From assembly GCA_902779565.1 (NCBI GenBank), contig CACZCD010000034.1, positions 1-38,078 on the forward strand: a stretch of DNA of 38,078 nucleotides, given 5' to 3'. The notes below the pieces were generated by a model that made no database searches, was not told the origin of the DNA, and saw only the letters and a program-made list of their open reading frames with translations. This DNA is from an uncultured bacterium (GTDB lineage Bacteria > Verrucomicrobiota > Kiritimatiellia > RFP12 > UBA1067). Below are positions 1,039 through 28,950 of the stretch, one piece after another. How positions within the stretch are numbered: position 1 is the stretch's first letter; each line of letters starts with the position of its first letter. A program made the position numbers and the translations under genes.

Positions 1039-4000
1039 CTATTCGGTGAACCCTTGCACAGGGCGAACAGACAGCCCGTGAGCGCGGTCGCTGTAGCCCG
1101 AACCGAAGCAGAGGTCCCACGCGCTGTAGTAGTCCGAGAACGGGACGGACGACCAGTAGTCGCCGGACGAACCGGCAAAGTTGAGCGAAGTCCAGTTGCC
1201 GTACCCGGCGCAGGGGAGGAAGATGCTGCCGGAGTCCGGCCCTGTGATGGTGTACCCGTCGACACCATTCACCGTCGTCCTTTCCCAAATGCACTTGCTG
1301 TCGAGGTCGTACAGTTCCTGTTGCGTCGGCATGCGCCAGCCGCCGCCCCAGTGCACGTGCGCCGCGTCATGCTCTGGCGCAAGGACGCCGTCCGCGGTGA
1401 TCCAGCCCTCGCGTTGGAGCGTGGCAAGGTCTTTGCCGCATGTCGGCGCGTTCCTCTCCTCAAACGAGAAGTTTGACGAGGAACCGTTTGAAGCCACCCA
1501 CTTCTCGTTCTCCCACTTGTAACCCACCGTGTCGCCCCACCAGAAGTAGTAGCCGGATTGCTCGGGACTCTCTGCGCCGACGTTCGTCGTAGCCCAATAC
1601 GGCCCGCCCTCCCAGAGCTGGACCCTCGAGTGTCCCTTGACGACGGTCACGCTCACCACGACGTTGCTGTGAATTCCCCCCATGCCGAAGTACGCCCCGG
1701 CGTCCCAGAGAAGATGGTAGTTGCCGTTGGTGGACACGTTTCTGGATGCGGACTTTTTCCCGTCTCGCACGGTCCAGAGATGCGTGGCGTTGTGGACATC
1801 GCCCGAATCCATCACCGCCGCCACGGCGAAATCATACCCGTTGATGGTCCCGTCGATCCCGGACACCGTGCAGGTGATGTCCACAAGTCCGTTCCACGGC
1901 CACCGCTGCCGCGCAACGACGTTCTCGACCTCTGGCTGATTTATCTTTCCCGTCACGACGAATGTCGCTGTCTCCGCCTTACTCGCGACGCCGTTCGTGT
2001 AAGTGGTGTGCGTGAGCTTGTACGTGCCGTTGTACGGGACGCTCCACGCCCGCTCGCCCTCGCCCGTCAGATTCACGGCAATCGCTTCGCCGTCCTGCTC
2101 GATCGTCACCGTCGCGCCGTCGCCGCCGTCCCACAGGGACGAGTAAGTGAGCGTCTCGTCGCCAAGGGAGTTGCGCGGTCCTTCCAAGGTGTCCAGCAGA
2201 ATCGGCGCGGAATCTCCCGCGATGCCAGCAGGAAACGATACCGCTGTCGAAGTGAACCCTTGGACGGGACGAACGGACTGCCCGTGGTAGCGGTCGAAGT
2301 TGGACGTGCCGTGGTAGATCAAATAGAAGTAGAGGTACCCCGCGTCGTTGTCGTAGCCCGAGCTCGGAACGGACGACCAGTAGTTGCCGTATGAACCGGC
2401 ATCGTAGAGCGAAGCCTCATTGCCGTTGCCGGCGCAGGGAAGGAAGATGCTGGCGGAGTCCTTCCCTGTGATGGTGTACCCGTCGACACCATTCACCGTC
2501 GTCCATACCCAATTGCACTTGCTGACGAGGTCGTCCAGTTCCTGTTGCGTCGGCATGCGCCAGCCGCCGCCCCAGTGCACGTGCGCCGCATCATGCTCTG
2601 GCGCAAGGACGCCGTCCGCCATGATCCATCCCTCGCTCTGGAGCGAGGCTAAGTCTTTGCCGTATGTCGAAGCTGCCGTACTGTCATTCTCGAAGAACGA
2701 AATGCTGGTTCCGTCTTTGACCGAAATCCATCCACTTCCCGTGTTCGTATAGCCCACCGTGTCGCCCCACCAGAAGTAGTAGCCGGATTGCTCGGGACTC
2801 TCTGCGCCGATGTTCGTGGTGGCCCAATACGGCCCGCCCTCCCAGAGCTGGACTGTGGCATGTTCCTTGACGATGCTCACGCGCACCACGACGTTGCTAT
2901 ATATTCTCCCCTTGCCGAAGTACGCCCCGGCGTCCCAGAGAAGATGGTAGTTGCCGTTGGTGGACACGTTTCTGGATGCCGACTTTTTCCCGTCTCGCAC
3001 GGTCCAGAGATGCGTGGCGTTGCGGACATCGCCCGAATCCATCACCGCCGCCACTGCGAACTCAAGTCCATTGAAGGTCCCGTCGATCCCGGACACCGTG
3101 CAGGTGATGTCCACAAGTCCGTTCCACGGCCACCGCTGCCGGGCGAAGACATTGGAGATGGTCGGTGTCGGGGCATCGCACCATCTGCACGCATTGGTTC
3201 CATAGTCGTGCTTGCAGGATTCAATGCGCACCGAAGTGGTCTGGCGGCAGGCTTCCGTGCGGTTCGACGCCGCGCAGGGCGTCACGGCGTTCGTCGGGGA
3301 GAAGACCATCATGTGGCCGAGCGTCAACGTGCCTGTGTCTTTACCCTTGTCGTCAAGGTTCACGCCGATCGCCTGCGCGGCCTTGCCAGAACCTTGGGCC
3401 GTGCCGGCGACGGCGATGACCGTGCCGCCGGTGATCTTCACCGTGCCGGAGGTACGCGAGTGGTCGCTCTCGGGAAGGGGACGCCCCGCGCCGATGCCTG
3501 CAGCGGCCTGTCCCGTTGAACTGCGACGGCTGCCGATGGCCGTGACATGGCCGCCGTTGATCTCCACCTCGCCGCCGCTGCCATCGTCGCCGCCGCCGAT
3601 GCCAGCCGAGCCATTGTAGCCCTCGGCGATAATCGTTCCGCCGTTGACGACCAGCTTGCCGCCGTCCGCAGCGCGGCCGCCGCCGATGGCCGCGCCGTAC
3701 TGACCGCCCCAGACCTTCATCCAGCCGCCGTTGACCGTCAGCGTTCCGCCATTCTCCTGGTCGTTGCCGCCAATGCCGGCGCAGTAGTTGGCGGGACGCA
3801 GGGCGAAGAGCGCGCCCGTGCCCTGGCGCTGACCGTAGATCGTGAGGCTGTTCGAAGCCGCCAGCCTCACGCCGTTCGTGGCGTTCAGCGTCGCGCCGTC
3901 GCAGAGGATGAGATTCACGCCGCTTCCGTTGACCGTGACGCGGCCCATGATGGTCACGTCCGCGTTGACGACGTACCAGCCCTGCGTCAGGGTCGTGGTG

Positions 4001-4149
4001 GTGCCGGTGACGAGCGTGCAGTCCACCTCCTTGTGGGGACTTGCCGGATCGGTGGGGTCATAGTAGGAAACCCTGTTGGTGGCCGCGCACAACGCCGGCG
4101 CCAGCGCCGCGCTCGCCGCGAGAAACATTGCCGTCAGTTTCTTTTTCAT
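1039..4149 (-). CDS. Secreted protein with GIGGG repeats and a duplicated FISUMP unit
   Basis: 1,036 residues with an N-terminal signal peptide (MKKKLTAMFLAASAALAPALCAA). Start supported by TAGGAG about 10 nt upstream. Residues about 60-290 hold a glycine-rich beta-solenoid-like stretch with repeated NGG and GIGGG motifs. Then come two copies of a unit of about 400 residues: a beta domain (QRWPWNGLVDITC.., NGNYHLLWDAGAYFG) followed by a FISUMP (Fibrobacter succinogenes major paralogous) domain, recognised by YWATTN, YYFWWGDTVGY, WGGGWRMPTQQEL, LPCAG, NYWSSV and QSVRPVQGF. A short beta module (DGGDGATVTI..) separates them and recurs in the next gene. It follows the giant adhesin by 38 bp and precedes the partial Calx-beta gene by 47 bp, suggesting one operon. 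FISUMP domains occur in surface proteins of gut anaerobes; the ligand is not known from sequence. Confidence 0.88.
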   Translation of the reverse strand: MKKKLTAMFLAASAALAPALCAATNRVSYYDPTDPASPHKEVDCTLVTGTTTTLTQGWYVVNADVTIMGRVTVNGSGVNLILCDGATLNATNGVRLAASNSLTIYGQRQGTGALFALRPANYCAGIGGNDQENGGTLTVNGGWMKVWGGQYGAAIGGGRAADGGKLVVNGGTIIAEGYNGSAGIGGGDDGSGGEVEINGGHVTAIGSRRSSTGQAAAGIGAGRPLPESDHSRTSGTVKITGGTVIAVAGTAQGSGKAAQAIGVNLDDKGKDTGTLTLGHMMVFSPTNAVTPCAASNRTEACRQTTSVRIESCKHDYGTNACRWCDAPTPTISNVFARQRWPWNGLVDITCTVSGIDGTFNGLEFAVAAVMDSGDVRNATHLWTVRDGKKSASRNVSTNGNYHLLWDAGAYFGKGRIYSNVVVRVSIVKEHATVQLWEGGPYWATTNIGAESPEQSGYYFWWGDTVGYTNTGSGWISVKDGTSISFFENDSTAASTYGKDLASLQSEGWIMADGVLAPEHDAAHVHWGGGWRMPTQQELDDLVSKCNWVWTTVNGVDGYTITGKDSASIFLPCAGNGNEASLYDAGSYGNYWSSVPSSGYDNDAGYLYFYLIYHGTSNFDRYHGQSVRPVQGFTSTAVSFPAGIAGDSAPILLDTLEGPRNSLGDETLTYSSLWDGGDGATVTIEQDGEAIAVNLTGEGERAWSVPYNGTYKLTHTTYTNGVASKAETATFVVTGKINQPEVENVVARQRWPWNGLVDITCTVSGIDGTINGYDFAVAAVMDSGDVHNATHLWTVRDGKKSASRNVSTNGNYHLLWDAGAYFGMGGIHSNVVVSVTVVKGHSRVQLWEGGPYWATTNVGAESPEQSGYYFWWGDTVGYKWENEKWVASNGSSSNFSFEERNAPTCGKDLATLQREGWITADGVLAPEHDAAHVHWGGGWRMPTQQELYDLDSKCIWERTTVNGVDGYTITGPDSGSIFLPCAGYGNWTSLNFAGSSGDYWSSVPFSDYYSAWDLCFGSGYSDRAHGLSVRPVQGFTE
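1047..1935 (-). repeat. Second copy of the FISUMP duplication
   Basis: This stretch matches 2252-3150 on the same strand with high DNA identity: the block GTTCCACGGC at 1891 recurs at 3121 and the block CCCACCGTGT at 1523 recurs at 2753, both offset 1230. The offset is 1205 near the 3' end, so small indels separate the copies in the middle. Confidence 0.85.
2252..3150 (-). repeat. First copy of the FISUMP duplication
   Basis: Partner of 1047-1935. The copies differ most in the short variable segment after the YYFWWGDTVGY motif and in the segment between LPCAG and NYWSSV, which may be the surface-exposed parts. Two similar DNA copies in one gene offer a substrate for recombination that would lose or gain a unit. 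Confidence 0.85.
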
Positions 4150-4187
4150 CTCTGTATGGCTCCTATTATCCTATTAGAGGTAGTTGG

Positions 4188-7100
4188 TCAGTCGATGCGG
4201 ACGAAGGAGTCGAGCGTTATGTCGGTTGCAGTAACGGTGGCTTGACGCGGGAAAGTGAACTGCTGCTGGTAGAGATGCCCGTTGGCAAGGAAGAAGAAGT
4301 TGCAGTGCATCGTACCGCTGCTGCCGTCCAGGCCTTCCAAATCCAGCGTCGCCGTCGCGTTCACGCTCTCGCCGTAGATCTTGCCGGTGATCGATACCGT
4401 GCCGTCCGCGCCGAAGGCGTAGGTGAGAGAATCACCGTCGGAAAGGTCTGCGAGCCAGGTGTCCTTCAAGTCAAGCGTCTTCTCCGTCCCTGACGCGAAC
4501 GCAGGCTTCCACTCCGCCGCGAGGTCGGTACGCTTCCAGATGTTCTGCCACGCGCAGTTGAGGGCGATGCACGGCTCGTCCTGCACGTCCTCGCTCCCGC
4601 CCCCTATCTCGCCGAAGCCTTCGTCGCTGCCGGCATACGGTTGGGGATCACACATGAGCCCCATCGACATCGTCTTGCCCTTCACCGTGATCGACACCCC
4701 GGTCGCCACGTAGTTCGTGGCTCCGTCGGTCACCTGTTTCGCGAACGTCCCCGAGAAGGTCGCGTTCGTGCCGTCCGTCCCGAAGAACGTTCCCGTGAAC
4801 GACAGGTTCGCCGCCACGTTGATCGTGAAGAGCCCGTTCAGGAACTCCGTGCCGCCGCCCGCGATCGGGAACTGCGCGTCGCCGTAGCCGTTGAACTCGC
4901 CCGTGAACCAGCTGCCCGAGCCGGCCGGCGCATCGCCGCCACCGATGGTGACGTCTGTGACAACCTTCTGCTCGTCGGTCTCGAGCGTCACGGCGAACGT
5001 TGCGCAGAAGCCGGCCTTTGGCGCATAGAGCGTCACCTCCCAGCCCTCGCCGTCGTTGACCAGCTGCGACGAGCCGCTCACGCTCGCGCCGTCGACCTTG
5101 CCCGCGAAAGCGACAACGCCGTCCTTCTTGAACGTGAGCGTCAGCTTGTTGTTCGCGTCGCCAGGCTCGCCAAGCTCATGATCGACCTTGATGTCCTTCT
5201 TGATAACGGGCTGCTCGGCCTTCGTGTCCGCGCGCTTCCAGAGGTTCTGGTAGGCGGTCCAGGTAACGGCCGCCTCGGAGAGGGTCGTGCCTGTGACGCC
5301 GCTTGCCGCGACCTTCACCTCGTTGGTCTCGAGGAGCTTGCCATTCTTGCCGATCACGGTGGCATGGAAAACCAGACTTTCGGCTTCGGATTCCGGACTG
5401 CCATCTACACGCTCTACACGTTCTACACGGCTAAATTCTCCCGCGCTCAACGTCCACGTGCCGTCGTCGCGCAGCATCTTGCCGCTGATCTTGCCCTTGG
5501 CATCGACCGCCAGAGACACGGTACCGCACGGCTCCTCCCCTGAGACAGGGGAGGTGGCCGCAAGGCCGGAGGGGTATGACCTCACCGCGCCATCGAACGT
5601 GCCGACGGCCCAGGCGGGCAGCGGGTCGATGTAGAGGTTGATCGCGAACGTCTGCGTGGACTTGCCCGCCGTCATGACGGTGAACACCACCTTCGAGGGC
5701 GTGACGTTGCCGTTCTTGTCCGTCTTCGATGCCGCCGTCGGCGCACCGTAGACCGTGTTGGCGGGGATCTCGACTTCCGTCTTCGAGCCCTTCTTCAGGA
5801 TGTCCTTCGCGGTGAACTTGAGGCCAGCGGGCAGGCCCGCCACCTTGATCGTGGTGGCCGAGAGCGCCTCCGCCACGAGCTGCCAGCTCATCGCCACGCC
5901 GCAGAAGTTGGTAATGCTGACGATCTCATTGGTCGAGAGACCGAGAGCTTCAGCTTCCGCGCCCATGGCCACCGCCAACTCGATGCTCGCCTTGTCTTCG
6001 TCGGCCGTCACGAACTTCGCCGTGTACTCCACGTCGCTTTCGCCCATCGCGGCAATCGCGTACGTCGCGTCCTTGGTGAGCAGCTCGCCGTTCGCGTCAA
6101 GCCAGCCTGCGAACACGTAGCCCTTGTTGGCAGCGGCCTTCAGCGCGATCTTCGTCTTCCCGGGCGCGTACTTGCCCATGCCGGTGATCGTACCCGCGAC
6201 ATACTTGCCCGCGCCCTTGCCGGTCGGCTCCGCGCCGGTGCTGTCCGTCGCATCAACGGTCACGAATATCTCGGGATCGCTCTTGAACACGGCGTAGTAC
6301 GTCACGTCCTCCGCGACGTTGGTGAGCGTCGTCGAGGTCTTCGAGTCCGCCGCCGGCTTCGCCGACCGGTCGATCACCAGCGACGCCGTGGTAGCCACGT
6401 ACTCGCCGCCGTTCCCCGTTCCCCATTCCCCGTTCCCCGTTCCCCACCCAAGGAACGTGAAGTTCTTGTTCGCGGACGCCTTCAGCGTCACCTTCTTGCC
6501 CCGCGCGCACAGTCCGCTGCCGGACACCTTGCCGCCGTCCGCCGGGTCTGCCAGCCCGCGCACATACGGGATCTTCTCGAACCGCGCCGTGAGCGCGAGA
6601 TCGTTCGTGAGCGTCACTGACGGCTTCGCCTTCGCGTCGAAGAGCGTTTCGCCGTCATACCAGCCAATGAATTCGTAACCTACGTTCGCCGTGGCAACGA
6701 GCGAAATCTTCGTCTTGTCGGGATAGACGCCCGACCCGGCGACCGTGCCGCCCTCCGCAGGCTCGGCAGCGAGCGTGATCGCGCGCATCTCGGTATCGGC
6801 GGGCGACCAGACAACGTTTGCAACGTATGCGCGCGCGTTGGTGTCCGCACCCTGGACGACCTGCCACGTGAAGGCGTGGCTCGTCGCCTTCTCCTCCTTC
6901 ACCGTGTACGAGGCCGAGGTCCAGTCCGTCTCGTTCGTCCAGGCAAGCAGGACCGTCTTGCCGTCGAAGAGCGTCAGCACCGTCTTCGCGGCACCCTCCG
7001 CCGCCTCGGGCGACTCGCCCTCCAGGGCGTCGTTCGCCACGCGCACGTCGAAGGACAGCGTGCCGCTCCCCTTCACGGCGGCGGCCTTGAGCTCGGACAT

Positions 7101-10100
7101 CTCGCCCGCCTTCAGAACCGGCGACATGGCCGACGCGTAGGCCGTCTTGCCTGGCGCGGCCTCGCCACCCGTGCCGACCGCCGCATACGCCCACTTGCCC
7201 TTGCCGGACGTGGACATCTTCACGACGGCGTTGTTCACCGCGTCCTGCAGCGTCTCCTTCCCCGCCGCCACGGTCGCATCGCGGATCGTCACCGTGCAGA
7301 CGCGACCCTCGCCAAGCTCCATGCCGACAGGCTCGGCGAGCTGCAGCGTGAAGAACTCGTCGCCCTCCACGGTCTTGTCGGTCTTCACGGGGATTGTCAC
7401 GATCTTCTCCCCGACCTCGCCCGCCGCCCACGTCAGCGCCAGGGGGAACTTGAGCCCGCCCTTCGGCGTCTCGCCGCCGGTAGCACCCTTCGCAAGGTCG
7501 AGGTCGGCAGATGCGGCAGTGTTGTATGCGATATACATCTTGGCCGACGAAGCCTTTCCGATGTTACCTCCATAGACCGAAACCGAAACCAATTCACCCT
7601 CATTTACGACCTTCTCGGCCTTGCCAAATCCAACCTCAATCTTTTCTGGCGTGACGATATTCCACCAGGCGGGATCGGTGGTGATTGGATCGTTCGTGTC
7701 GAACACGATGGTGGCCGAGTTGTCGATGCGGACGCCCCGCGGAACGTCGTCACGCACCTTGATGGTGTAGGTGAGGTGCCCTTCGCCGCAATGCGTCTCC
7801 TCGTTGTTCGGCGGCAGGAACCCGCCCGTCACGTCCACCGGCCACGTGTCCCCAGAATTCGGATCAATCACGCGCTGATACCAGCACACCTCGCCCTTCG
7901 TCTTATCGAGATCGACGATTGTGCGGACAATGAGGTTTGTGCCGGTCATCGTCACCTCGTTCGTGCCGTTCTGCTTACCGACAAGACCGAGGTCAATCTG
8001 ATCGCCAAACGTCACCTCGCCCATCTCGAACGTGGACCAATCGAGATACTGGCTCAGCGAGTTTGTCACAAACACCTCCTGCGCGGCTGCGGTCGCATTT
8101 GTCTGGTTCTCGTAATAAACTGTGTACGTCACCTTCTGTCCCGGTTCGAGGAACCGCTGCGTATCGGGATCGCCCTTCCCAATCGGCCCCGCCATCTCGT
8201 TCGGATCTTTTGACTTGATTATGATTTGATCACCGCGCCTAACTACCTTAAAGTTCTTGGCATCGTCATTTTCAGGACCACTAACCGTTATTCTTTTTTT
8301 AGCCAATTTGGAACGCCACAATCCAACACTATCCAAGATAGAGAAATCAAGTTTCTTGGGTGCGTATGTCTCACGAAGAATGACATCGTAAGCAACCGTA
8401 TCCTGTTTTCGTGCTCGTAACGAAGCAGTACAACTCTCCCCACTTCCCTTACAACACCCTTCCCATGAACGCGCCTTCAAAACTGAATCGTACGGAACCG
8501 ACGTAGTAGATTCAAACGTTACTGGCACTTTGCCATTATTGTATCCTCCCACACTGTCAATCGCCAACTTCGGCAATGGCGTTTTCCACTCCCATTTATC
8601 GCCGACATTATTCCATTTAACAGAACCAGAACGATGAAATGCTGCGCCATCAAAACTTAGCTTACCCCATGATACTTTAGCATGTAGAACATTAATTTCC
8701 CAGTCCGTGTACGGACCATAACTATAATAATACTTATCCGCGATTTCCTCAGACGAACTTAATGTTACACCTGCCTTAACTTGTACTCCGAAATCAATAC
8801 TCGCATCAATAAGTGTCGCCTTTCTATCTTTTTTAGGATCTATCGCTCCTACACCGACCTCTATGTTACATCCTAGTCTGCCATCAATCTCTCCCTTGAA
8901 CTCCAGTTTTGAATCTTTGTCATCACCACTTTGCGTTATTTCTTTCTCGAAACTCTTTTTGGTTGGCATGTTATATTTCGTAAACCATGCATGTTTCCAT
9001 GATGTCTCGTAAGTTATATGGCTCTTGACATGTCCAGAACACTTCATCGTACCAGAGATATATGAGGCCAAAGGACCATATTGAATTTTCTTTGCTTCCT
9101 TGCTGGGATGAACATTCATTCCTGCATCAACGGACAGCTTAAAGTCAAGAATAAGTTGAAACACTTTTACTTCACCATCAAGCAACCATAAATTAACTCG
9201 CACATTTCGAGTAGATAATGTACCTTTCGCAAATAAACTTGAGTTCTTGACTCCTAACGACACATTTGCAAAGTCAAATGGATATGTTTCCTTTGAGATC
9301 TCTGGTGCACCTAACAATCTTAACGGAGACGAAACCGACAATGATTGATAGGCCGTTGTGAGCTCTACATATTCAGTCTGAACAATAATTTCGTCAGAAT
9401 CTGTTTCTTCTAATAATCTAATCCGCCTTGGCATTAACGGATATGCAGGATCAACGATTATATCTCCCTCACCTAGAATAATTACGTCTCTATCTAGCAT
9501 TCTTTGAAGCGTCATTGATTCTGCATTACTATCAAGAATCTTGTACCCAGAATTGTCATCAATGGTAAATGCTCCATCAGCCATTTTGGTTGGCAACGCC
9601 TCCCAAGCCATAACAGCCTCGCGTTTCTGATAGTTAAACACCCTCCCATTAGAGGTTGTAACTCTAAGCCCGATGGAATAGGTACCAGCTTCGGTATAAA
9701 TATTGGTCGGCGAAATGTCGCTACTGTCAACAACACCATCTCCATCAAGATCCCATTCACACGTAAAATTAGCTCCCCACGCGCCATCGTCTATCAAGAT
9801 GACTGCGGCTTTTAGCGGAATCTCGCCAACAGAAGAGTCGATAACGAACGGGACTACTGATGCAGGCACAACGCAATCAGTAGAAAACGCACCTGTTACA
9901 TCGATTTTATCATCGTCTGAGCGTTGCACCTTCGTGCCTATTGTTAAATCATATGACCCAGGGGGTGCATCAAATCTAACTTGCCCATTTTGATCAGTAA
10001 TGCCATATGCGACAATCCCGCCTTCTTCATTAACCAAGTTACAAACCACATTGCTGAGCACACAACTATTATTGGAGTCAACAATTGATACATTAACAAT

Positions 10101-16803: not shown

Positions 16804-19800
16804 TCACTCCTCTGGCCACGGCACGCTGATTGAGCGCGCGTGGGGGGCGAGGCCCTTCGGCGCGAGGTAGATGAACACCTCACAATGTTCCTCGTCCACC
16901 GGGACGAGCGTGGCAGAGCCAGTCGCCTTCACAGTCGTGTACTTCTTCGTCTTGTCGTTGTAGCCCGTCACAAACTCGCCGGCCACGCTCACCGTGCCGC
17001 TCGCCGCGAACTTCAGCGTCACGCGGGCGGTCACGTCCGCACCAAGTGCGGCCGTCAGAGCGACTTGGTCCTCGGAGAACGTGCCGTCGGGGAGAATCGC
17101 GTAGGTCATGGTCTTCTTGTCGAAGGACTTGCCGAGCGTCTTCCACGGCTCGACCTTCCAGTTGTACTGCCAGGCAACAAATTCGGGAGGGCCGACCTCT
17201 GTGTCGGCCGCGACGTCGCCCTGGCCGCCGTCATCCGGATCGGCCGCGACGGAGCGCGGCCCTCCCACGGCGATACCGCCTATGCCGTTGTCCTGCACCA
17301 CCAGCAGCACGACGTCGTTCGTCTTGATCGTCTTCGTGCCCTCCTTGTAGCTCCAGCTCGTCGTGACGTCCGCAAGGAAGTTGGAGCCGCCGTCGGCCAT
17401 GTCGAAGCCGGTGTAGTACGGCGCCGCCAGCGTGTAGGTGAGCCCGTCGCCCAGCGCCTTGCCGCTCACCTTGCCCGCCGCGCTCACCGTGAGCGAAACC
17501 TGCCCCGGTAGGGTCACGCGTCCCGCGTGACCGTCATCCGGTAGGGCGGGCGCGCCGCGCACGCCGTAAACCCCGCCCGCGAACGTGCCCTGCGCCCACG
17601 CGGGCAAGGCGTCCACCGTCGCGTCGATCTGGTACGTCTGCGTCGACTTGCCTGCCGTCGTCACCGTCACCTTCACCTCGCTCGGCTTCGCCGCGCCAGT
17701 ATTCTTGTCCGTCTTCGACGCCGCCGTCGGCGCACCGTAGATCGTGTTCGCCGGGACGTTCGTGACCGTGACCGCCGTCTTGCCGCTCCCGATCTTTGTC
17801 GTCACCGGCTTGTCCGTGAACTTGAGTCCCGCCGGCAGCCCCGCCACCTTCACCTTCGCCTCGGAAAGCGCACTTGCCGCCACCGGCCACTCGAGGTACA
17901 CCCCCGCCCAGATGTTCGTCTGGTGGGGCGAGCCGTCCCCGGCGAGCTGCATCTCCTCGCCATTCACCGCCAACTCGATGCTCGCCTTGTCCTCGTCGGC
18001 CGTCACGAACTTCGCGACATACTCCACATCGTTCGACGGCATCTTGTCGATCATGTAGCTCACCGCCTGTGAAAGCAGCCCATCCGCACTACTATTCCCT
18101 ATTCCCTCTTCCCTGTTCCCTATTCCCTCTTCCCTGTTCCCTATTCCCTCTTCCCTGTTCCCTGTCTCGTACCAGCCGGCGAACACATAGCCTTTGTTCG
18201 CCGTCGCCTTCAAGGTCACCTTCTTCCCGGGCGCGTACTTGCCCATGCCGGTGATCGTGCCCGCGACATACTTGCCCGCGCCCTTGCCGGTCGGCTCCGC
18301 GCCGGTGCCGTCCGTCGCATCAACGGTCACGAATATCTCGGGATCGCTCTTGAACACGGCGTAGTACGTCACGTCCTCCACGACGTTCGTGACCGTCGTC
18401 GACGTCTTCGAGTTCGCCGCCGGCTTCGCCGACCGATCGATCACCAGCGAAGGCGTGGTGGCGACGAAATAGCCGTCCGGGTAGGGCGCGGACTCCGGCC
18501 GCGCCGTATTGTTGGTTGTCCACCCCACAAACGTATAGTTCTTGTTCACGGCCGCCTTCAGCGTCAACTTCTTGCCCCGCGCGCACAGGCCGCTCCCCGA
18601 CACCTTCCCGCCATCCGCCGGATCGGCGAGCCCGCGGACATACGGGATCTTGTAATAGAAGGCAAACCACTGCGTCGAATTTGTCACCGTCACGATAAGT
18701 TTAGGATTGTTAAACTCTTCTATGCTCGTTAAATTGAGCCAACTGTCAAACTCATACCCAAAACGCGGCTTGGCTGTCAAAGTCACTTTGCTTCCATATT
18801 TATACGTCCCCGTACCACTTGAGAAAACGCCATCAACCAAGAAAGATCTCATGTCATCCGAGAAATAGAAATCCTTAATCGACAATGTGTACATCACCTC
18901 ATTATCTGGAACCCACTTCACTGCCGTAACCCTAACATGGACATCAGGAACCGCACCTTGCGTAAATTCCAGCACTATATGATGCGCTCCCGAACTGGAC
19001 AAAACGACCTGCCATCCGTGCCATCCTTCCCCATTTTCCGTTTGCGTAATTGGGCCATATCTTTTGGAATTATCATACAATCCAAATGTAGAAACCGACC
19101 CCGCATAATCATTTCCAACATATTCTAATTCGAACAGCAAACGCCCACTCCCATTAAACGTACCGAGGTCAAGTTTCGCCACCTGTCCAGCTTTCAAATC
19201 TGGGGACTGAACAAAGACAGAACAACCATTACTTGGATCGCAATGCGCCGCCTCGTGCGCCGTCCATTTGCCAGTTCCGCTCATCGACGGCTTAAGGCTC
19301 TCATTCCCAAGCCCCTGCGCAAGGGTAATGTCGGAGTTCATATCGCGTATCTCGACCGTGCAAACACGAACGTCGCCAAGCTCTACACCCTTGGCATTGC
19401 CCAACTGCAAAGTCAGCATCTCCATGCCCTCAATTGTCGTATCAGCCTTTACTGGTATGCTAATCCGCTTCTCACCTACCTCACCTTTAGACCACGAAAG
19501 CGTCAGCGGGAACTTCAGTCCTCCTTTGGGCGTCACGCCGTCAATCGCCCCTTTCGCCATGTCCACATCCGCAGCAACCGCAGTGTCGTAAGCTATAAAA
19601 ATCGTTGCGCTTGATGTTGAATCATCTATTCCGCCGGTAACGACAATTGAAATATTCGAACCCTCTTCGCAGACGACAGACTGCGATTCGAAATTGACGG
19701 CATATCTGATCTCGACCCAGTGCTGATACAACACAAAATCACCGCCAGGAACAATTGCATCGGGAGTTGCCTTCATGCCAGCACCATCTTCCCCTGTGTA

Positions 19801-21540
19801 CCATCCATCAAACTTGTATCCCGCACGTCGCAAGGGAATCGGCAGTTCACCGAACGGCTCACCAACTGTCAGTTCTAAACTATGCTCTACAGCTTCGCCG
19901 CAGCACGAATCCACAACATACGTCCCGATTGTCTTTGCCGGCAATGAATTAGTCGAGCCGTGAAACATAACTACGCACACAGGGCAAGGAGGAGGCTCCG
20001 GTTTGCCAGGCATGGGATCGTCGGGGGTAGGATCGTCAGGCGTGGGATCGTCAGGCGTGGGATCGTCAGGGGCAGGATCGTCAGGAGTGGGATCGTCAGG
20101 GGTAGGGTCGTCAGGAGTGGGATCGTCGGGCTTCGGATTACCAGGAGTTGGATCGTCATCATTAGGGGCCGCGTAGGCGGTAATAAACCATTCATTGTCA
20201 ACTGTGGAGTTTGCCATATCCGTCCATTGCATGGCGTCTATGCCATCTATGTTCCAATGCGAACGAAAGAATCGCCCCTTTACCGGATTAGGGTTGCTCA
20301 TTATAGCAACGCTCTCTGCGCAATCTACGATAATCGAATAACGCTGTCCCTTTTTCACTGCAAAGGGAGTTGGCAGGTCGATTGTGAAGTATCCTGTTCT
20401 ATCTGGGAATTCCATCTCCTTGCCATCGATGACACAGGTTCCTGTCGCCGGACTATCCTCGGTGCATCCGACAAAAGCATAAATCTTATAGTCGTCAAGG
20501 TGGGCTCCCATTATGCCTATGGCATTGATCGTGTCATCGCTTTCCGCAGTGAAAACAACGGCGCATGAATCCAGCTCGTTCATGGAAACCCCAATTAGCG
20601 ACGTCGGATTTTCCGCGCGATGGCAATACAGCCTGCCATATTTGTTTTGTACATCCGGAATGAGGACCGATGTGTAATCCGCAAAGCATAAATCCGTCCA
20701 GGCCAGTCCCATATAGCTGGCATGATTAACCGGTGGTCTGTACCTGAAGATGTTGTCATCGTAGTAGGAGACATAGAAGTATCCATTATCGCCAAAACCC
20801 GTGCCATACGAACCCTTTACGATCCACGCGCCGTCACCCTCGGGTACTTTACCGCCAGTCTTGAAAAACGACGCGGAAATGGAATCGTCGAAACCGACAA
20901 CCATTGCAGTACGGTAGTATTCGCGCTTGTAGTAGGACGACGAATCCGGCTGCATCGGGAAATAGCAATATTTCCCGTTGTTGAAAAAGGAATCAACATG
21001 CTGATACCAGGTGAGAAGAGGTGCGTTGACAAGATTTTGTTTCAGATATTTAAGCGAGGCCTTCCACTCAACCGTTCCAGTGCTTGACTGTTCGATGCCC
21101 TCCATCAGATACATATGTATTATGTGAGAGCCATCAAGCCAACTTCTCAAAATCCAATCGTAGGATTTTCCTATAAACGGTAGCTGCGTATTTCTCTGAT
21201 AGTATTCCGCCGCAGGTGCATCGGGGGCTGACTTCGCCTGCGCGGCAAATGCGGATATCTGAGCCTCGGTATACGTACAAGCGGCCCTCTCGGTATCCGT
21301 CAACCCGTCATAGGGCTTCTTCTTCAAGATCAAGTTAACAGACTCAATAAAGTCCATTGGCGCATACGCATAGGACTGATCTTCGGTCCCCTTCTGTGTT
21401 TTAACCGGAGTTGTGTAGCACTTACCATCTACATTGTCCCAGCGAAACTTCGTCGGCAATGCCGCCAATGTCGACAGTGACAACAACGCACAGGCAATTA
21501 CAATCGTCGCCAACACCATTCGCTTCATGATTCGTTTCAT
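16804..21540 (-). CDS. Large surface protein with a catalytically degenerate papain-like head and Calx-beta/InlB tail
   Basis: 1,578 residues; the ATG at 21538-21540 follows AAGGAG and a signal peptide follows (VLATIVIACALLSLSTLAA). Residues 28-265 have the bacterial C1 papain fold, seen from TPVKTQKGTEDQSYAYA, TAMVVGFDDS and GDGAWIVKGSYGTGFGDNGYFYVSYYD. In active relatives these read QG..G.CWAFA, HAV.IVG.DD and VKNSWG, so the Cys is Ser56, the His is Arg210 and the Asn is Gly243. A lectin-like domain typical of C1 relatives follows (about 300-455), then a (PDDPT)n linker, a Flg_new/InlB repeat (520-600), Calx-beta (613-734), more InlB repeats (887-1164), an Ig-like domain and a C-terminal tail related to that of the giant adhesin. 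Probably a secreted, non-proteolytic binding protein. It stands 113 bp behind the membrane-protein gene of the radical SAM locus. Confidence 0.88.
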   Translation of the reverse strand: MKRIMKRMVLATIVIACALLSLSTLAALPTKFRWDNVDGKCYTTPVKTQKGTEDQSYAYAPMDFIESVNLILKKKPYDGLTDTERAACTYTEAQISAFAAQAKSAPDAPAAEYYQRNTQLPFIGKSYDWILRSWLDGSHIIHMYLMEGIEQSSTGTVEWKASLKYLKQNLVNAPLLTWYQHVDSFFNNGKYCYFPMQPDSSSYYKREYYRTAMVVGFDDSISASFFKTGGKVPEGDGAWIVKGSYGTGFGDNGYFYVSYYDDNIFRYRPPVNHASYMGLAWTDLCFADYTSVLIPDVQNKYGRLYCHRAENPTSLIGVSMNELDSCAVVFTAESDDTINAIGIMGAHLDDYKIYAFVGCTEDSPATGTCVIDGKEMEFPDRTGYFTIDLPTPFAVKKGQRYSIIVDCAESVAIMSNPNPVKGRFFRSHWNIDGIDAMQWTDMANSTVDNEWFITAYAAPNDDDPTPGNPKPDDPTPDDPTPDDPTPDDPAPDDPTPDDPTPDDPTPDDPMPGKPEPPPCPVCVVMFHGSTNSLPAKTIGTYVVDSCCGEAVEHSLELTVGEPFGELPIPLRRAGYKFDGWYTGEDGAGMKATPDAIVPGGDFVLYQHWVEIRYAVNFESQSVVCEEGSNISIVVTGGIDDSTSSATIFIAYDTAVAADVDMAKGAIDGVTPKGGLKFPLTLSWSKGEVGEKRISIPVKADTTIEGMEMLTLQLGNAKGVELGDVRVCTVEIRDMNSDITLAQGLGNESLKPSMSGTGKWTAHEAAHCDPSNGCSVFVQSPDLKAGQVAKLDLGTFNGSGRLLFELEYVGNDYAGSVSTFGLYDNSKRYGPITQTENGEGWHGWQVVLSSSGAHHIVLEFTQGAVPDVHVRVTAVKWVPDNEVMYTLSIKDFYFSDDMRSFLVDGVFSSGTGTYKYGSKVTLTAKPRFGYEFDSWLNLTSIEEFNNPKLIVTVTNSTQWFAFYYKIPYVRGLADPADGGKVSGSGLCARGKKLTLKAAVNKNYTFVGWTTNNTARPESAPYPDGYFVATTPSLVIDRSAKPAANSKTSTTVTNVVEDVTYYAVFKSDPEIFVTVDATDGTGAEPTGKGAGKYVAGTITGMGKYAPGKKVTLKATANKGYVFAGWYETGNREEGIGNREEGIGNREEGIGNSSADGLLSQAVSYMIDKMPSNDVEYVAKFVTADEDKASIELAVNGEEMQLAGDGSPHQTNIWAGVYLEWPVAASALSEAKVKVAGLPAGLKFTDKPVTTKIGSGKTAVTVTNVPANTIYGAPTAASKTDKNTGAAKPSEVKVTVTTAGKSTQTYQIDATVDALPAWAQGTFAGGVYGVRGAPALPDDGHAGRVTLPGQVSLTVSAAGKVSGKALGDGLTYTLAAPYYTGFDMADGGSNFLADVTTSWSYKEGTKTIKTNDVVLLVVQDNGIGGIAVGGPRSVAADPDDGGQGDVAADTEVGPPEFVAWQYNWKVEPWKTLGKSFDKKTMTYAILPDGTFSEDQVALTAALGADVTARVTLKFAASGTVSVAGEFVTGYNDKTKKYTTVKATGSATLVPVDEEHCEVFIYLAPKGLAPHARSISVPWPEE
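17185..17270. repeat. Composite palindromic element, copy 1 of a dispersed family
   Basis: GGGAGGGCCG at 17185-17194 is inversely repeated by CGGCCCTCCC at 17257-17266, with TCGGCCGCGACG directly repeated inside (17204-17215 and 17240-17251). The 30 bp at 17241-17270 match 37441-37470 in an unrelated gene at 25 of 30 positions. On the minus strand it codes a VAADPDDGGQGDVAADTEVG-type insert in the C-terminal tail without breaking the frame. Confidence 0.75.
17505..17546. repeat. Hairpin flanked by 9-bp direct repeats, in frame
   Basis: GGTCACGCG (17512-17520) pairs with CGCGTGACC (17524-17532). The nonamer CCGGTAGGG stands on both sides, at 17505-17513 and 17538-17546. This is the layout expected of a small inserted palindromic element with a target duplication. 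It lies in the surface protein gene and keeps the frame. Confidence 0.6.
18094..18163. repeat. Heptamer tandem array (NTTCCCT x10) in the papain-like surface protein gene
   Basis: Ten heptamers ATTCCCT, CTTCCCT or GTTCCCT, organised as a 21-bp superunit repeated about three times. On the minus strand the array codes GNREEGI repeats directly after the GW of an InlB-type repeat (GYVFAGW), the same position at which the giant adhesin gene carries its own heptamer array. Confidence 0.9.
18227..18467 (-). repeat. InlB-type module shared with the giant adhesin gene (copy B)
   Basis: Partner of 6160-6400, offset 12,067. Only scattered substitutions are visible across more than 200 bp. Confidence 0.85.
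20015..20155. repeat. 15-bp tandem repeats coding a PDDPT linker
   Basis: The unit GGATCGTCAGGNGTG is repeated about nine times with small changes. On the minus strand it codes (PDDPT)n, a stiff acidic Pro-rich linker between the papain/lectin-like head and the InlB/Calx-beta stalk. There are no spacers, so it is not a CRISPR array. Confidence 0.9.
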
Positions 21541-21653: not shown

Positions 21654-22256
21654 TCACTTTCGCGATCCCAGATTACTCAACACCCAAAGACGTGTAATGG
21701 AATTCTGAACCTCAGCATACTTTCGAATGCGCTTTGCAACTTTTGAACGTTTCTCTTCGGACGTATTGCTTAAATAATCATCGACAAGCCATTCAGCGAT
21801 ATCGACGGGCGATGTGCCAATCTTGCACAAGATCTCATATAGTTCCGCAACATCAGGCAACACCGCTACTACGTCATCCACGTTCATTTCCGTTTTTAAA
21901 TGGTCTGATTTCTTCGCCCTGTCGAGAATCGCCATCACAACGGTATGAGACGCCCCCATCCCCACAAACGCATCATTCAGGAACACCAGATTTTCAAATC
22001 TTTTCCGTTCCTTCTCTCCAAGTCTTCCCCCACCTTTAGCGAGCATCGCTTCCCCACCGCCAACTGCGTCTACTTCTTGTCTTGTGTTGTAGTCTATCTC
22101 CATCATGCGTTTTAGGAGTGCGAGGTCGTCCATTGTAGAATACTCTTCGCAATCAAGTCGCTTCCACTCGTTCTTTTCGCGTTCAGACACAAAGAACAGA
22201 ACACCCGCCAGCACAAAGATGCCCGTAATCATCATTATTGTTATTTTCTCCACCAT
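21654..22256 (-). CDS. Small one-helix membrane protein next to the radical SAM locus
   Basis: About 200 residues from the ATG at 22254-22256; upstream sequence in frame reads through a hairpin and looks noncoding. No close ribosome site is visible (GGAG lies 16 nt away), so the start is uncertain. Residues about 6-24 form a single transmembrane helix (TIMMITGIFVLAGVLFFVS), followed by a charged, mainly helical domain with no motif I recognise (DDLALLKRMMEIDY, VDDVVAVLPDVAELYEILCKIG, VAKRIRKYAEVQNSITRLW). The topology suggests the bulk faces one side of the membrane as a soluble helical domain. It is 155 bp behind the 42-codon peptide gene on the same strand and could act with it (immunity, export or processing), but only position supports that. 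Confidence 0.7.
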   Translation of the reverse strand: MVEKITIMMITGIFVLAGVLFFVSEREKNEWKRLDCEEYSTMDDLALLKRMMEIDYNTRQEVDAVGGGEAMLAKGGGRLGEKERKRFENLVFLNDAFVGMGASHTVVMAILDRAKKSDHLKTEMNVDDVVAVLPDVAELYEILCKIGTSPVDIAEWLVDDYLSNTSEEKRSKVAKRIRKYAEVQNSITRLWVLSNLGSRK

Positions 22257-22364: not shown

Positions 22365-22390
22365 GAGCGGTCGGATTTCTCCGACCGCTC
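22365..22390 (-). promoter_or_regulatory. Perfect 11-bp hairpin with GAAA tetraloop behind the peptide gene
   Basis: On the minus strand GAGCGGTCGGA pairs perfectly with TCCGACCGCTC around a GAAA loop. It begins 21 nt after the stop codon of the 42-codon peptide gene and has no U-tract, so it fits an mRNA-stabilising or partial-termination hairpin rather than a full intrinsic terminator. In RiPP operons such elements can raise precursor expression relative to downstream genes; that reading is an inference. Confidence 0.7.
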
Positions 22391-22411
22391 CGTTCGGAAT
22401 GCAATTAGGAG

Positions 22412-22540
22412 TTAATCGCTTCCCATGCCACACCCGAAAACGATGCATCCAGACCTATAGTCTGCGGCTTCCTGAGAAGTCACCGTAATCTGGGCGGCAA
22501 GCACTTCTGCTTCCGAAAGCATTTCTGCTGAGATTTTCAT
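22412..22540 (-). CDS. Candidate RiPP precursor peptide, 42 residues
   Basis: ATG at 22538-22540 preceded by AAAGGA at about 7 nt, stop TAA at 22412-22414. The N-terminal part (starting MKISAEMLSEAE, then Ala/Gln/Thr/Val-rich) looks like a helical leader. The C-terminal 16 residues, DYRSGCIVFGCGMGSD, are glycine-rich with two cysteines (32 and 37) and hydrophobic residues between them, as in substrates of thioether- or cyclophane-forming radical SAM enzymes. It lies 82 bp downstream of a radical SAM/SPASM gene on the same strand and is followed by a strong hairpin. I do not recognise the leader or core as a known family. The strong ribosome site, the position and the sudden change from leader to Gly/Cys-rich tail support a real gene. 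Alternative: a chance short frame. Confidence 0.65.
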   Translation of the reverse strand: MKISAEMLSEAEVLAAQITVTSQEAADYRSGCIVFGCGMGSD

Positions 22541-22622
22541 GATAATCCTTTCAATTGCGATACACTAAATGAACGGGAAAGCTACTTCACCAGCCATTAT
22601 CCTTCCCGAATGGAAAATGGCG

Positions 22623-23768
22623 TCACGGTTTATCTGTCACTGCTATCGCTTCCTCTTTCCTCCTTTCTGTCAGATGGTAGATTTCAATCGCTGCCTTCAA
22701 CTTGACCTGTTCTTCGCGAGAAAGAGAGTTCTTCTTCTTCATGTAATATTGTATTTGAAATGCGCTAATCACGCGAAACTCCGCCTCCAGCATCTTGCAG
22801 CCTCGTTTATCACGCAAGCCGACGTCCCCGCGTTCCTGTAAATTATCGGATATACATGTTGGACAACATTTCACAAGGGTGCATTTCTCACAAACCGGAT
22901 CCTTTCTCCCTGCCAGCGGATGTTCAAAATCAATACATTTAATTTCATCAAAAATATCGCGCCCCCAGACAAAAGGCAGAAACATGTGGCATGGATAGCC
23001 CTTGCCGCTGTAATCATAGGCAACCATGTGGTGACCGGCACCACAGAACGAGTCGCGCCTATCCGTAAGTTGGCCAGTGAATGAATACATAAAAAACGGA
23101 TTGGGGGAATATTCGGGATTCTCTAAATAAAAGTTGGCGATACGGGTCAACTGTTCTTCATAAATCAGTGCTTCTTCTGCAGTCCATTTAACTCCGACAG
23201 CACGACCGCTTTCCAACTGGTATCCCTGTCGCGTCAGGTTGATGAAATCTTCCGCATACCGTTTGAGGGCTTCACGAGAGACTGTCATTGAAAAATGGAC
23301 ATCCGGCCAAGTGTCGCGTGCAAATTCCACAGGGATATCTTCCAAGGAGACACCACGATTCAACAGCTGGGTCGAACTGTCTCCATCGATGGAGAGACGC
23401 AAGGAGATTTTGTCTTTGTGGCACCTAAACCAATCTCTTTTGTCGGCTGTCAATAAAGTCCCATTTGATGTGATGGAAACAGTATATTTTACCTTGGTAT
23501 CAAGCCCCCATAGCCATTCGCAGAAGGATTTTATCATTTCGAAGCGCAAAAGTGGCTCCCCTCCAAATAAATTTATGGTTAATCCATCAAAATTCCCTGT
23601 TCGCTCGATTGATTCAATTTCATTGGCGATGACTTTCTTGGCCGTATCCAAGCTCATGTGCCTTGAGGGATCATTCATTTTGAATTTTTCAAAGCAGTAT
23701 GTACAATGAAGATTACAGGCGTAAGTCAAGACCAACTTGCAAACTCGTGGATTTTTAAACTGAACCAT
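22623..23768 (-). CDS. Radical SAM/SPASM peptide-modifying enzyme
   Basis: 381 residues from the ATG at 23766-23768 with AAAGGAG about 9 nt upstream; a longer in-frame start (TTG at 23912) lacks support. The [4Fe-4S]/SAM site is C18-N-L-H-C22-T-Y-C25, with the glycine-rich motif NLFGGEP near residue 70 and SITSNGTLL near 103. The C-terminal SPASM region holds nine cysteines (242, 260, 278, 293, 296, 301, 302, 305, 324) in an FCGAG...YPCH...CEKC...KCCPTC...GCK arrangement, fit for auxiliary Fe-S clusters. SPASM enzymes of this kind modify ribosomal peptides (sactipeptides, ranthipeptides, cyclophanes) or activate sulfatases. It lacks the usual anaerobic sulfatase-maturase context, since no sulfatase gene is near, and is followed by a 42-codon Gly/Cys-tailed peptide gene, so peptide modification is the better reading. 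No transporter or protease partner is adjacent. Confidence 0.9.
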   Translation of the reverse strand: MVQFKNPRVCKLVLTYACNLHCTYCFEKFKMNDPSRHMSLDTAKKVIANEIESIERTGNFDGLTINLFGGEPLLRFEMIKSFCEWLWGLDTKVKYTVSITSNGTLLTADKRDWFRCHKDKISLRLSIDGDSSTQLLNRGVSLEDIPVEFARDTWPDVHFSMTVSREALKRYAEDFINLTRQGYQLESGRAVGVKWTAEEALIYEEQLTRIANFYLENPEYSPNPFFMYSFTGQLTDRRDSFCGAGHHMVAYDYSGKGYPCHMFLPFVWGRDIFDEIKCIDFEHPLAGRKDPVCEKCTLVKCCPTCISDNLQERGDVGLRDKRGCKMLEAEFRVISAFQIQYYMKKKNSLSREEQVKLKAAIEIYHLTERRKEEAIAVTDKP

Positions 23769-23889: not shown

Positions 23890-24216
23890 CTACGGCGCGG
23901 ACAAAACCGCAAACAGGATGATTATCAATCCTATTGCGGCAAGGGAAGGCCCCAGCAATGAACGCGACCAGCCACTCTCAAACTTGTCGAGCCGCGAGGA
24001 AATGACCGTCTTCTGAAACTCGTCGGCAAGCTCAATCCGATCACGATAAACGCCGAACTCGCAGAAGTCATCCCTGCCATAAAGCATCCGGCGAAACCAC
24101 GCTCGAATACCAACCCTCAGGCCATACAGCCTGAACAGGCATCCCCCGGTGTCCTCGCCCACTTCCAGCCGACGGAACAGATACCGCTTGGGGTGTACCA
24201 CGTACATCTTAGGCAT
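23890..24216 (-). CDS. Small membrane protein of unknown function, possibly frameshifted at its end
   Basis: 108 residues from the ATG at 24214-24216, which has AAGGA at 6 nt; the ATG at 24222 overlaps the stop of the DUF4282 gene but sits right against the ribosome site. The N-terminal part is basic and may be a small beta domain (YVVHPKRYLFRRLEV, FCEFGVYRDRIELADEFQ); a single transmembrane helix ends the protein (LLGPSLAAIGLIIILFAVLSAP). The frame one step over continues past the stop with a good-looking helical tail (SPLPEQALNEMVEAIKRLQ) that ends at the start of the radical SAM gene, so the present stop could result from a frameshift or sequence error. Third gene of the thioredoxin/DUF4282 operon by overlap. 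Family not recognised. Confidence 0.65.
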   Translation of the reverse strand: MPKMYVVHPKRYLFRRLEVGEDTGGCLFRLYGLRVGIRAWFRRMLYGRDDFCEFGVYRDRIELADEFQKTVISSRLDKFESGWSRSLLGPSLAAIGLIIILFAVLSAP

Positions 24217-24218
24217 TG

Positions 24219-24734
24219 TCATTCCTTCGCACCCTCCGGCGCAGCCGACTGCCGATGCTCCTCAATTTGCACCAAACGCCCAACGAGATCGGTCATCTTC
24301 GTAGTGGATTCATGAATGCGAAAGATTGCCATCAGCGACTCGAGGGAAAGCCGAAATGCAATCAGAATCAGGATGCTGATCCCAAAAACCTTCCACATGT
24401 CCCCAGAAGTGACGTATCGGCTCTTGGACATTGAGCCGAGAATCGAAATCATCGTGATTGGATAGGCGATGTACGCACCAACAAGCCAGGCAATGCGGAT
24501 GATCATCGGAGTAATCATCAGCCTAAAAGCATTGAACGCCCTGAAGCCCGTGTTCTGCGGAGCAAGATCGGTAACTCCGTAAATGCGTCGCTCTCCATCG
24601 TGCACGGCCTCGTCGGGCTGCGATTCGCGATGGGCCTCCCTGTAGTTCCTCACCCACTCCATACCCTTTGTCGCCATATCGCCCGCCGCCGCAAGCGCCT
24701 TTCTCGCCTTGTCTTCCATTTCTGCTCTGTTCAT
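24219..24734 (-). CDS. DUF4282-like membrane protein
   Basis: 171 residues from the ATG at 24732-24734, which overlaps the TGA of the thioredoxin-fold gene as ATGA; AAAGGG stands about 9 nt upstream, inside that gene. After a hydrophilic N-terminal half there are two transmembrane helices (RIAWLVGAYIAYPITMISI and DMWKVFGISILILIAFRLS) spaced as in DUF4282, ending in an amphipathic tail (MTDLVGRLVQIEEHRQ). DUF4282 proteins have no assigned function. Its stop overlaps the next start region, so the three genes 26722-23890 are translationally coupled. Confidence 0.75.
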   Translation of the reverse strand: MNRAEMEDKARKALAAAGDMATKGMEWVRNYREAHRESQPDEAVHDGERRIYGVTDLAPQNTGFRAFNAFRLMITPMIIRIAWLVGAYIAYPITMISILGSMSKSRYVTSGDMWKVFGISILILIAFRLSLESLMAIFRIHESTTKMTDLVGRLVQIEEHRQSAAPEGAKE

Positions 24735-27324: not shown

Positions 27325-28950
27325 CTATTGCCCTTCTGCATCTGACGCAAGCGCATCCGCCACACAGGCGAAAAGAAGCCTGTCCCACCACTCCACGTTC
27401 TTTACCCGCGTCTCGCCTATATTTCCAACCAGTTGCTGCGGCGCGCAGAACAGCTTACCCCTCCCGACACGCCGAAATGCCATCACTGGCGCCCGCTCAT
27501 CGTCATCCGTCACTATGAGCGCATGCCAATCATCGGACATCTCCGTCACCCTGAAATAGGAGAACCCATCCAGTTGGCAGTCGCGCAGCACCGGCGCGAC
27601 GGCCCTCACCGGCGGCTTGCCCGGAAGGCTTTGTATCTTGAGTCCGTAGCCCGAAAGCAGGTCCCCCATCATCACCCGGTTGCACTCGCACACGAAAGCG
27701 AACACGGTGCCGCCATCCGTAAGGTAATGGGCGATGGACTCCTTGTCGGGATCCAAACAGCCTCTGCCAACCGAACGCCCAAAAAGCAGCAGCACGTCTG
27801 GCTTCGCCGCAACCGAACAGGCCACCCCATTGGTGGAAAAATTGACCGACGCGCGCGCCTTTACGTCCTCGCCGAAAAAGCACCGCTTGATGCCGGCTGT
27901 CGATTTGAGGCATGAACCGTATGTCGCATCGCCGCACACGGTTATGCGTTCAACATCCATGACAGGATGCGCCAACCATTCAAATGGGGCATCGACCACG
28001 GCGGCAGAGGTGCGCCAGGCGTGCCAGCCCAATCCGCCGACGACCATCAGCGCCATCCCCCCCGCCACGCAGAGTGCCGCCCTCACCTTGCGCCGCGTGC
28101 GGAATCCGCCGTAGCCATCGCCGGCATAGTCGATTTTATCCTGCAGGATCGTAGCCGCCTCGGTGCAGTGCGCCGACAGAAAGGCATAGTCGATCCTTGC
28201 GCATCTGGCGCCGATGGAATCGTCCCTCACAAAGAACTCGCCGCCGCCCGGCAGCGATTCCGAGTCGCGATAGCCCACAACAAGCACGGCGTGCGCACCC
28301 CTCCCGTCAGGATAGGCGTCAAGCGCAATGGCCACCGGCATCGGGCGATACCCGCCCGTTCCGGCCAGAACCCCTTTGATGGCGGCGACGTTACCCGGCT
28401 CCGGGAGAAAATCCAGTCCATTCGCCAAACGGCGGCGTCTTGCATCCTCTCGTGTGAAATCCGGCAGCGCGGGAGAATTGCCCACGAACGGCTCTGCGGA
28501 GCTGCCGCCTCCTTCGGGCCACAGGGCATGGCGGCAGATGCCGAACGCCACCAACGCCTCGGAAACGAACCTGATCGGGCAGCCGCTCGCGGAATCAAAC
28601 GTTGCGATCGCCGTTGCGCGGAACATTTCGCCGAAACGGCGGCACTGTACGGATTCTGCCTTGCCACCAGACATCAGGCAGCGAAGGCCCGCAAGGTTTT
28701 CTGCGAACACCGATTCGAAATCCGCCTCTCCCCGTTCTCCCCGCATCACAGCCGCGAGGTTCCGATCCAACCATTCCTGCACCTTGATGCGCATGGCGGC
28801 GAACAGGAACGCCGTACTCAACCTCACACGGCAGTCCATCTGGTACTCAAGCAGCGAAACGACCGCGTGCGCCGCGCAAGCGCCTTTCTGAGTCTGCGCC
28901 TCGATGATCGGCGGCAGGTTCCGCACAAGCGACACTCGGCGCGGCAACAT
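27325..28950 (-). CDS. Membrane protein: papain-like peptidase fused to a GATase1-like domain
   Basis: 541 residues. Residues 10-270 look like a C1-type papain domain: TQKGACAAHAVVSLLEY holds the presumed nucleophile Cys25, GAHAVLVVGYRDS holds His220, and FFVRDDSIG supplies Asp243/244 where most papains have Asn. Unlike the pseudo-papain at 16804-21540, the Cys/His pair is present. A transmembrane helix (289-312; ALCVAGGMALMVVGGLGW) follows, then about 225 residues resembling class I glutamine amidotransferase-like domains (PDVLLLFGRS, IAHYLTDGGTVFAFVC, VGRGKLFCAP). No signal peptide is seen, so the papain part is probably cytoplasmic and the rest extracytoplasmic. The ATG lies 3 nt behind the previous gene and is part of the sigma-factor operon. 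Likely a regulated peptidase sensor or effector; substrate unknown. Confidence 0.75.
   Translation of the reverse strand: MLPRRVSLVRNLPPIIEAQTQKGACAAHAVVSLLEYQMDCRVRLSTAFLFAAMRIKVQEWLDRNLAAVMRGERGEADFESVFAENLAGLRCLMSGGKAESVQCRRFGEMFRATAIATFDSASGCPIRFVSEALVAFGICRHALWPEGGGSSAEPFVGNSPALPDFTREDARRRRLANGLDFLPEPGNVAAIKGVLAGTGGYRPMPVAIALDAYPDGRGAHAVLVVGYRDSESLPGGGEFFVRDDSIGARCARIDYAFLSAHCTEAATILQDKIDYAGDGYGGFRTRRKVRAALCVAGGMALMVVGGLGWHAWRTSAAVVDAPFEWLAHPVMDVERITVCGDATYGSCLKSTAGIKRCFFGEDVKARASVNFSTNGVACSVAAKPDVLLLFGRSVGRGCLDPDKESIAHYLTDGGTVFAFVCECNRVMMGDLLSGYGLKIQSLPGKPPVRAVAPVLRDCQLDGFSYFRVTEMSDDWHALIVTDDDERAPVMAFRRVGRGKLFCAPQQLVGNIGETRVKNVEWWDRLLFACVADALASDAEGQ

Follow-up and report, generated by a model that had tools for sequence, protein, structure and literature searches.

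The described systems closest to the locus analysed here are the CXXX-repeat systems (TIGR04114, TIGR04115, TIGR04117), the PapA/PapB freyrasin-type ranthipeptides (NF047865) and the SCIFF/CteB ranthipeptides. CteB is a thioether ranthipeptide maturase, and sactisynthases use SPASM domains too (PMC8326336). PapB takes Cys-to-Asp separations of 0 to 6 (PMC9413430). The SCIFF ranthipeptides have been tied to quorum sensing (Chen et al. 2020, cited in PMC8326336). Each of these systems resembles one side of the present locus: the CXXX-repeat systems have enzymes of a sister clade and a precursor adjoining the enzyme, PapA/PapB provides the best curated enzyme model and a single small precursor, and SCIFF/CteB provides the closest solved fold and a Cys-rich C-terminal core. 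The peptide encoded here belongs to a group with short, Gly-rich tails (the short-tail peptides), which looks like a so far undescribed branch within a modified-peptide family that is already known; no description of it was found in the literature covered, which was partial, most subscription papers lying outside it.

The enzyme gene

The window, meaning the whole stretch of 38,078 nt that was analysed, is one contig of a genome that most likely belongs to an uncultured, gut-type Kiritimatiellae bacterium. It contains on its minus strand an intact frame (22623..23768) for a SPASM radical SAM peptide maturase of 381 aa, running from an ATG at 23768, with AAGGAG upstream, to a stop at 22623. The nine C-terminal cysteines described in the first-pass annotation are present, and seven of them (242, 260, 293, 296, 302, 305 and 324) do not vary across the 35 enzymes that were aligned. 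The radical SAM motif CX3CX2C (residues 18/22/25) and the SPASM cysteine set are complete and all cluster-ligand cysteines are conserved in the same alignment, as is characteristic of RiPP radical SAM/SPASM enzymes. The top NCBIfam match is the PapB ranthipeptide maturase model NF047865 (5.9e-33; 114.5 bits against a cut-off of 340), and the CXXX-repeat maturase TIGR04115 is also matched (3.1e-22; 79.5 bits against a cut-off of 350); both are among the best peptide-maturase matches of the enzyme, with scores far under the curated cut-offs. A defence-system identity was rejected, the viperin models matching the generic radical SAM part only.

In the AlphaFold model (mean pLDDT 92.3) the enzyme starts straight at the radical SAM barrel and thus lacks an N-terminal RRE domain. 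The leader of any substrate must therefore bind the enzyme itself or a separate RRE protein, and no such separate leader binder was seen. The closest PDB folds are those of CteB (5WHY/5WGG, E 2.3e-15), followed by anSME, ChlB and TigE.

The precursor gene and its hairpin

Behind the enzyme gene, and separated from it by a spacer of 82 nt (22541..22622, minus strand, read directly) that carries the ribosome site AAAGGA, lies a gene of 42 codons (22412..22540, minus strand, ATG at 22540) encoding the peptide MKISAEMLSEAEVLAAQITVTSQEAADYRSGCIVFGCGMGSD, with a leader of approximately residues 1-30 and a core of approximately residues 31-42 (GCIVFGCGMGSD). G31, C32, C37, G38 and G40 are invariant in a seven-sequence alignment. 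C32 and C37 are the only cysteines and have four residues between them; there are no CXXX repeats, and the ending CGMGSD has a C-x4-D spacing and contains no CX3D/E motif. Against Pfam, NCBIfam and PHROGs the peptide gave no match that was significant or exceeded the cut-off of a family; the NCBIfam models likewise did not match those of its relatives that were tested. Reading past the stop in three frames gave no longer Cys-rich precursor by frameshift.

That this frame is a gene, as the first-pass annotation had proposed, is supported by profile searches. A profile of six homologous peptides, with that of the window left out, placed 22415-22540 at the top of a six-frame search of the 4.09-Mb genome (full length, E 0.0038; runner-up E 2.0), and a nine-peptide profile placed the frame first among 761 window frames (E 7.6e-6; second 0.046). 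The frame also ranked first with a CXXX leader profile, at a non-significant E of 0.83. Between the homologous genes of loci L022 and L023, the 19 codons from residue 29 contain 10 synonymous differences and 1 non-synonymous difference, which indicates strong purifying selection on the core; the leader has 5 synonymous and 14 non-synonymous differences. Judged from these sequence comparisons, the coding is genuine and the enzyme-peptide pair is conserved.

The hairpin was likewise found as described: 21 nt past the precursor stop, a perfect 11-bp stem with a GAAA loop (22365..22390, minus strand) lies in a stretch with a folding energy of -30.7 kcal/mol (z = -6.4) and without a U-tract. Strong hairpins also occur 3' of the peptide gene in L022, L023, L024, L025, L030 and L136, and none was seen after that of L134 within the stretch folded. 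Because such hairpins follow the peptide gene in most of the homologous loci folded, the element is probably the end of the transcript despite the missing U-tract. It occurs once in the genome, so that a dispersed genomic repeat was rejected, and Rfam and tRNA searches gave nothing.

Phylogenetic distribution of the enzyme-peptide pair

A maximum-likelihood tree built from 42 enzymes places that of the window in a set of 12 rows (support 99/96, a value that applies to the short-tail set as a whole, the tree giving no exact branching order inside it), and the neighbouring sister set of 16 rows (support 100/98) has CXXX-repeat precursors. A homologous frame of 42-46 aa adjoins the enzyme in 10 of the 12 members, the window included; the other two are L032, in which the DNA is cut at the enzyme end, and L036, which is without a recognisable frame. 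Thus the proposed RiPP pairing is conserved. Close homologues without a similar frame, or with unconserved cysteines, had been named in the first-pass annotation as evidence that would speak against it, and with the exception of L036 none were encountered.

Nine closer enzymes (36-47% identity to that of the window) came from a profile scan of named genomes and a scan of Bacteroidales; an earlier single-sequence scan of genome contigs gave nothing, and an alignment-based scan succeeded. Their hosts are Odoribacteraceae (L022, L023), Alistipes (L024), Oscillospiraceae (L025), Bacteroidales (L026, L030) and the genomes G713, G961 and G750 (L134, L135 and L136, respectively). The 42-46 aa frame stands beside all nine, downstream of the enzyme except in L026 and L135, where it is upstream; examples are MKVSDALLLEATALVQSKDLSEQMQRVVACGCFGCGLGCSGTVGMD in L023 and MLNNELLMDAAALVNSNEAKIAQLQADVECASGCGMCGYGSN in L024. 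The start, the leader pattern, the cysteines of GC and CG and the Gly-rich tail of the window peptide are common to the nine other peptides. The window tail is nearest to those of L024 and L025 (CGMGSD versus CGYGSN). Its core is shorter than most, lacks the third cysteine present in most relatives, and aligns at both cysteines only with a 2-residue gap.

Nine more enzymes, at 28-39% identity and spread over eight genomes, came from a search across the class. Wherever their flank could be read, one to three Cys-rich peptides of the CXXX type lie immediately behind the enzyme or around it; one relative, L018, stops at a contig edge. In 59 genomes of the Odoribacteraceae family and 275 of the Oscillospiraceae order, the peptide profile returned only known short-tail peptides. 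The enzyme is absent from five genus-mates (genomes 63-87% complete) and is thus not conserved inside the genus.

Some of the related records have features of their own. L024 and L025, recorded as Bacteroidota and Bacillota, share 83% DNA identity across enzyme and peptide, a likeness that suggests transfer or mis-binning. L036 (1450-4089) contains a pair of radical SAM enzymes separated by a 36-aa frame (MKKLENLQSVDFEEVSVKSMNDAWIVAGYDNFCVIA) that may be a precursor of another type. At the edge of L141 (1452-4125), a contig from a viral collection, an L025-like enzyme adjoins a phage integrase; since the record ends at the enzyme stop codon, phage cargo and host flank are indistinguishable.

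Neighbouring genes and GC content

Most loci of the CXXX clade (L013, L029, L034, L035, L037-L040, L042, L043, L074, L075 and L079) have a ClpP-like protease, an ABC exporter or both as neighbours, and the recurring proteases may be dedicated leader peptidases. In L013 (G064) a single run (1788-7495) combines three CXXX-type precursors and two radical SAM enzymes with both an ABC exporter and a ClpP-like protease. No such protease or exporter was found beside the short-tail loci within the DNA examined, in which some flanks are short (~0.9 kb behind the L022 peptide); in L030 the sole ClpP match is distant and lies on the opposite strand, and in L136 a fragment of an ABC-ATPase is found where the stretch ends. 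The lack of transporter and protease remarked upon in the window is therefore a feature of the short-tail group too, though the sister clade has them. Other enzymes accompany certain short-tail peptides: a B12-radical SAM enzyme lies directly behind the peptide in L024 (4451-6223) and L025 (2575-4392), with an E1-like ThiF protein upstream in L024, and a YcaO lies directly behind the enzyme in L026 (4070-5821), where the short-tail peptide is upstream and the YcaO possibly adds an azoline or thioamide to the scaffold. Upstream of the enzyme, L025 (779-1135) and L026 (2348-2710) encode small membrane proteins that are homologous to each other and have a zinc ribbon as their tail; L134 has one of similar make-up, which phmmer did not match to them.

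The first-pass annotation had pointed to the one-helix membrane protein behind the hairpin (21654-22256) when suggesting that the product might act at the cell of origin. Membership of this protein in the module is unsupported, since no relative occurs at any related locus, and with no homologue in 333 other genomes of the class either it was rejected as a partner. Upstream, a DUF4282 protein and a 110-aa membrane protein (23890-24734) were rejected on the same ground of no homologue at related loci; the DUF4282 protein is also absent from genus-mates. The thioredoxin, DUF4282 and 110-aa genes overlap by 4 nt, lie 121 nt from the enzyme and look like an operon of their own.

The GC content of the enzyme, peptide and membrane-protein genes (44.6-49.6%) is lower than that of the whole window (56.8%), in keeping with import. 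A sharp-edged low-GC island was rejected, because the low-GC zone is wider (~18.6-23.9 kb), and the locus is thus not a clean cassette. Elsewhere in the window, 16804-21540 encodes a large surface protein with InlB repeats, which begins with a papain-like part and has a GNREEGI repeat; the catalytic Cys position reads QSYAYA, and by this reading the papain-like part looks inactive. A second papain-like protein (27325-28950) seems to have its catalytic Cys motif intact, the sequence being QKGACAAHAV. In L136 a C10 protease with InlB repeats is convergent to the peptide gene.

Proposed maturation and alternative explanations

The enzyme and peptide quite probably constitute a two-gene RiPP module, in which the peptide would be the precursor and the enzyme would install a ranthipeptide-like thioether crosslink under guidance of the leader. 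The N-terminal, helix-like leader would be bound by the enzyme directly or via an RRE from elsewhere, and the enzyme would make a 5'-deoxyadenosyl radical from SAM. By homology to PapB and CteB (PMC9413430, PMC8326336), it would then take a hydrogen from an acceptor residue and join the cysteine sulphur, with a change of -2 Da per link. Using the SPASM auxiliary clusters, the sulphur of Cys32 and/or Cys37 would be linked to a nearby core residue, probably at a non-alpha carbon as in PapB and SCIFF ranthipeptides. I33-F35 could supply the acceptor, as could Asp42 (separated from Cys37 by four residues), the C-x4-D spacing being no obstacle in view of the separations that PapB takes. Leader removal and release would fall to housekeeping proteins, as the locus has neither a protease nor an exporter dedicated to it. 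We infer the thioether chemistry, the residues used, the processing and a possible biological role as signal or local antagonist; the type of crosslink (thioether or C-C) and its residues are thus putative. A role that is local or inside the cell would be consistent with the missing exporter.

Alternative explanations differ in what becomes of the tail. The link could be a sactionine, joining the Cys sulphur to an alpha carbon: the Gly/hydrophobic tail is poor in Asp/Glu/Thr acceptors and SPASM domains serve sactisynthases as well, but PapB and CXXX are the nearest families and CteB the nearest fold, two of the three (PapB and CteB) being ranthipeptide maturases, and the sactisynthase SkfB stands far lower in the fold ranking, so that this linkage is unlikely. 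Slightly less likely again is some other change, such as a C-C link, epimerisation, or oxidation of cysteine or glycine. Radical SAM/SPASM enzymes are chemically diverse and Gly is the only near-constant residue besides Cys; however, no side chains of the core are better conserved than those of the two cysteines, and the neighbouring clade has Cys-repeat peptides.

The remaining alternatives would leave the pair without a product of the proposed kind. The absence of the locus from genus-mates, the shortened core and the GC content suggestive of import could mark a decayed remnant whose precursor lost the third Cys and a TVG tail and now yields nothing. This is improbable, as both frames are intact and the same short ending recurs in L024 and L025, itself a conserved pair. 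Least credible by far is a chance frame beside an enzyme with another substrate: short frames abound, with 72 of 30 aa or more in a stretch of 6 kb, but the precursor ranks first in both the genome and the window profile searches, and its position beside nine homologous enzymes is conserved. The ranthipeptide-like module thus remains the preferred reading. A wider interpretation is possible, although held tentatively, in which the short-tail peptides form a new RiPP family spread horizontally among gut-type Kiritimatiellae, Bacteroidales and Oscillospiraceae, their short Gly/Cys-tailed scaffold being cross-linked by a radical SAM enzyme dedicated to it and tailored in some hosts by a B12-radical SAM enzyme or YcaO. 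Having no exporter of their own, these peptides would perhaps act in or at the cell that makes them.

Comparison with known systems

The short-tail peptides make up a compact precursor family (~42-46 aa, two to four Cys) outside the curated libraries searched, and the enzyme and its substrate are a pair ready for testing how SPASM enzymes choose the type of linkage. SCIFF, unlike the window peptide, has six Cys in forty-five residues, and CteB is ~70 residues longer than the window enzyme, with ~22% identity. PapA has six CX3D/E motifs (PMC9413430), whereas the window peptide has none. The CXXX-repeat precursors share a related leader start (hhalign, 18 columns, pairwise E 4.9e-5, probability 68%) but carry 4-19 Cys in CXXX repeats, in contrast to the Gly-rich tail with 2-4 Cys of the short-tail group. 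The sister clades thus contrast, Cys repeats being accompanied at most loci by a ClpP-like protease, an ABC exporter or both and the short tail by neither, and this makes the role of these peptides and their site of action directly testable.
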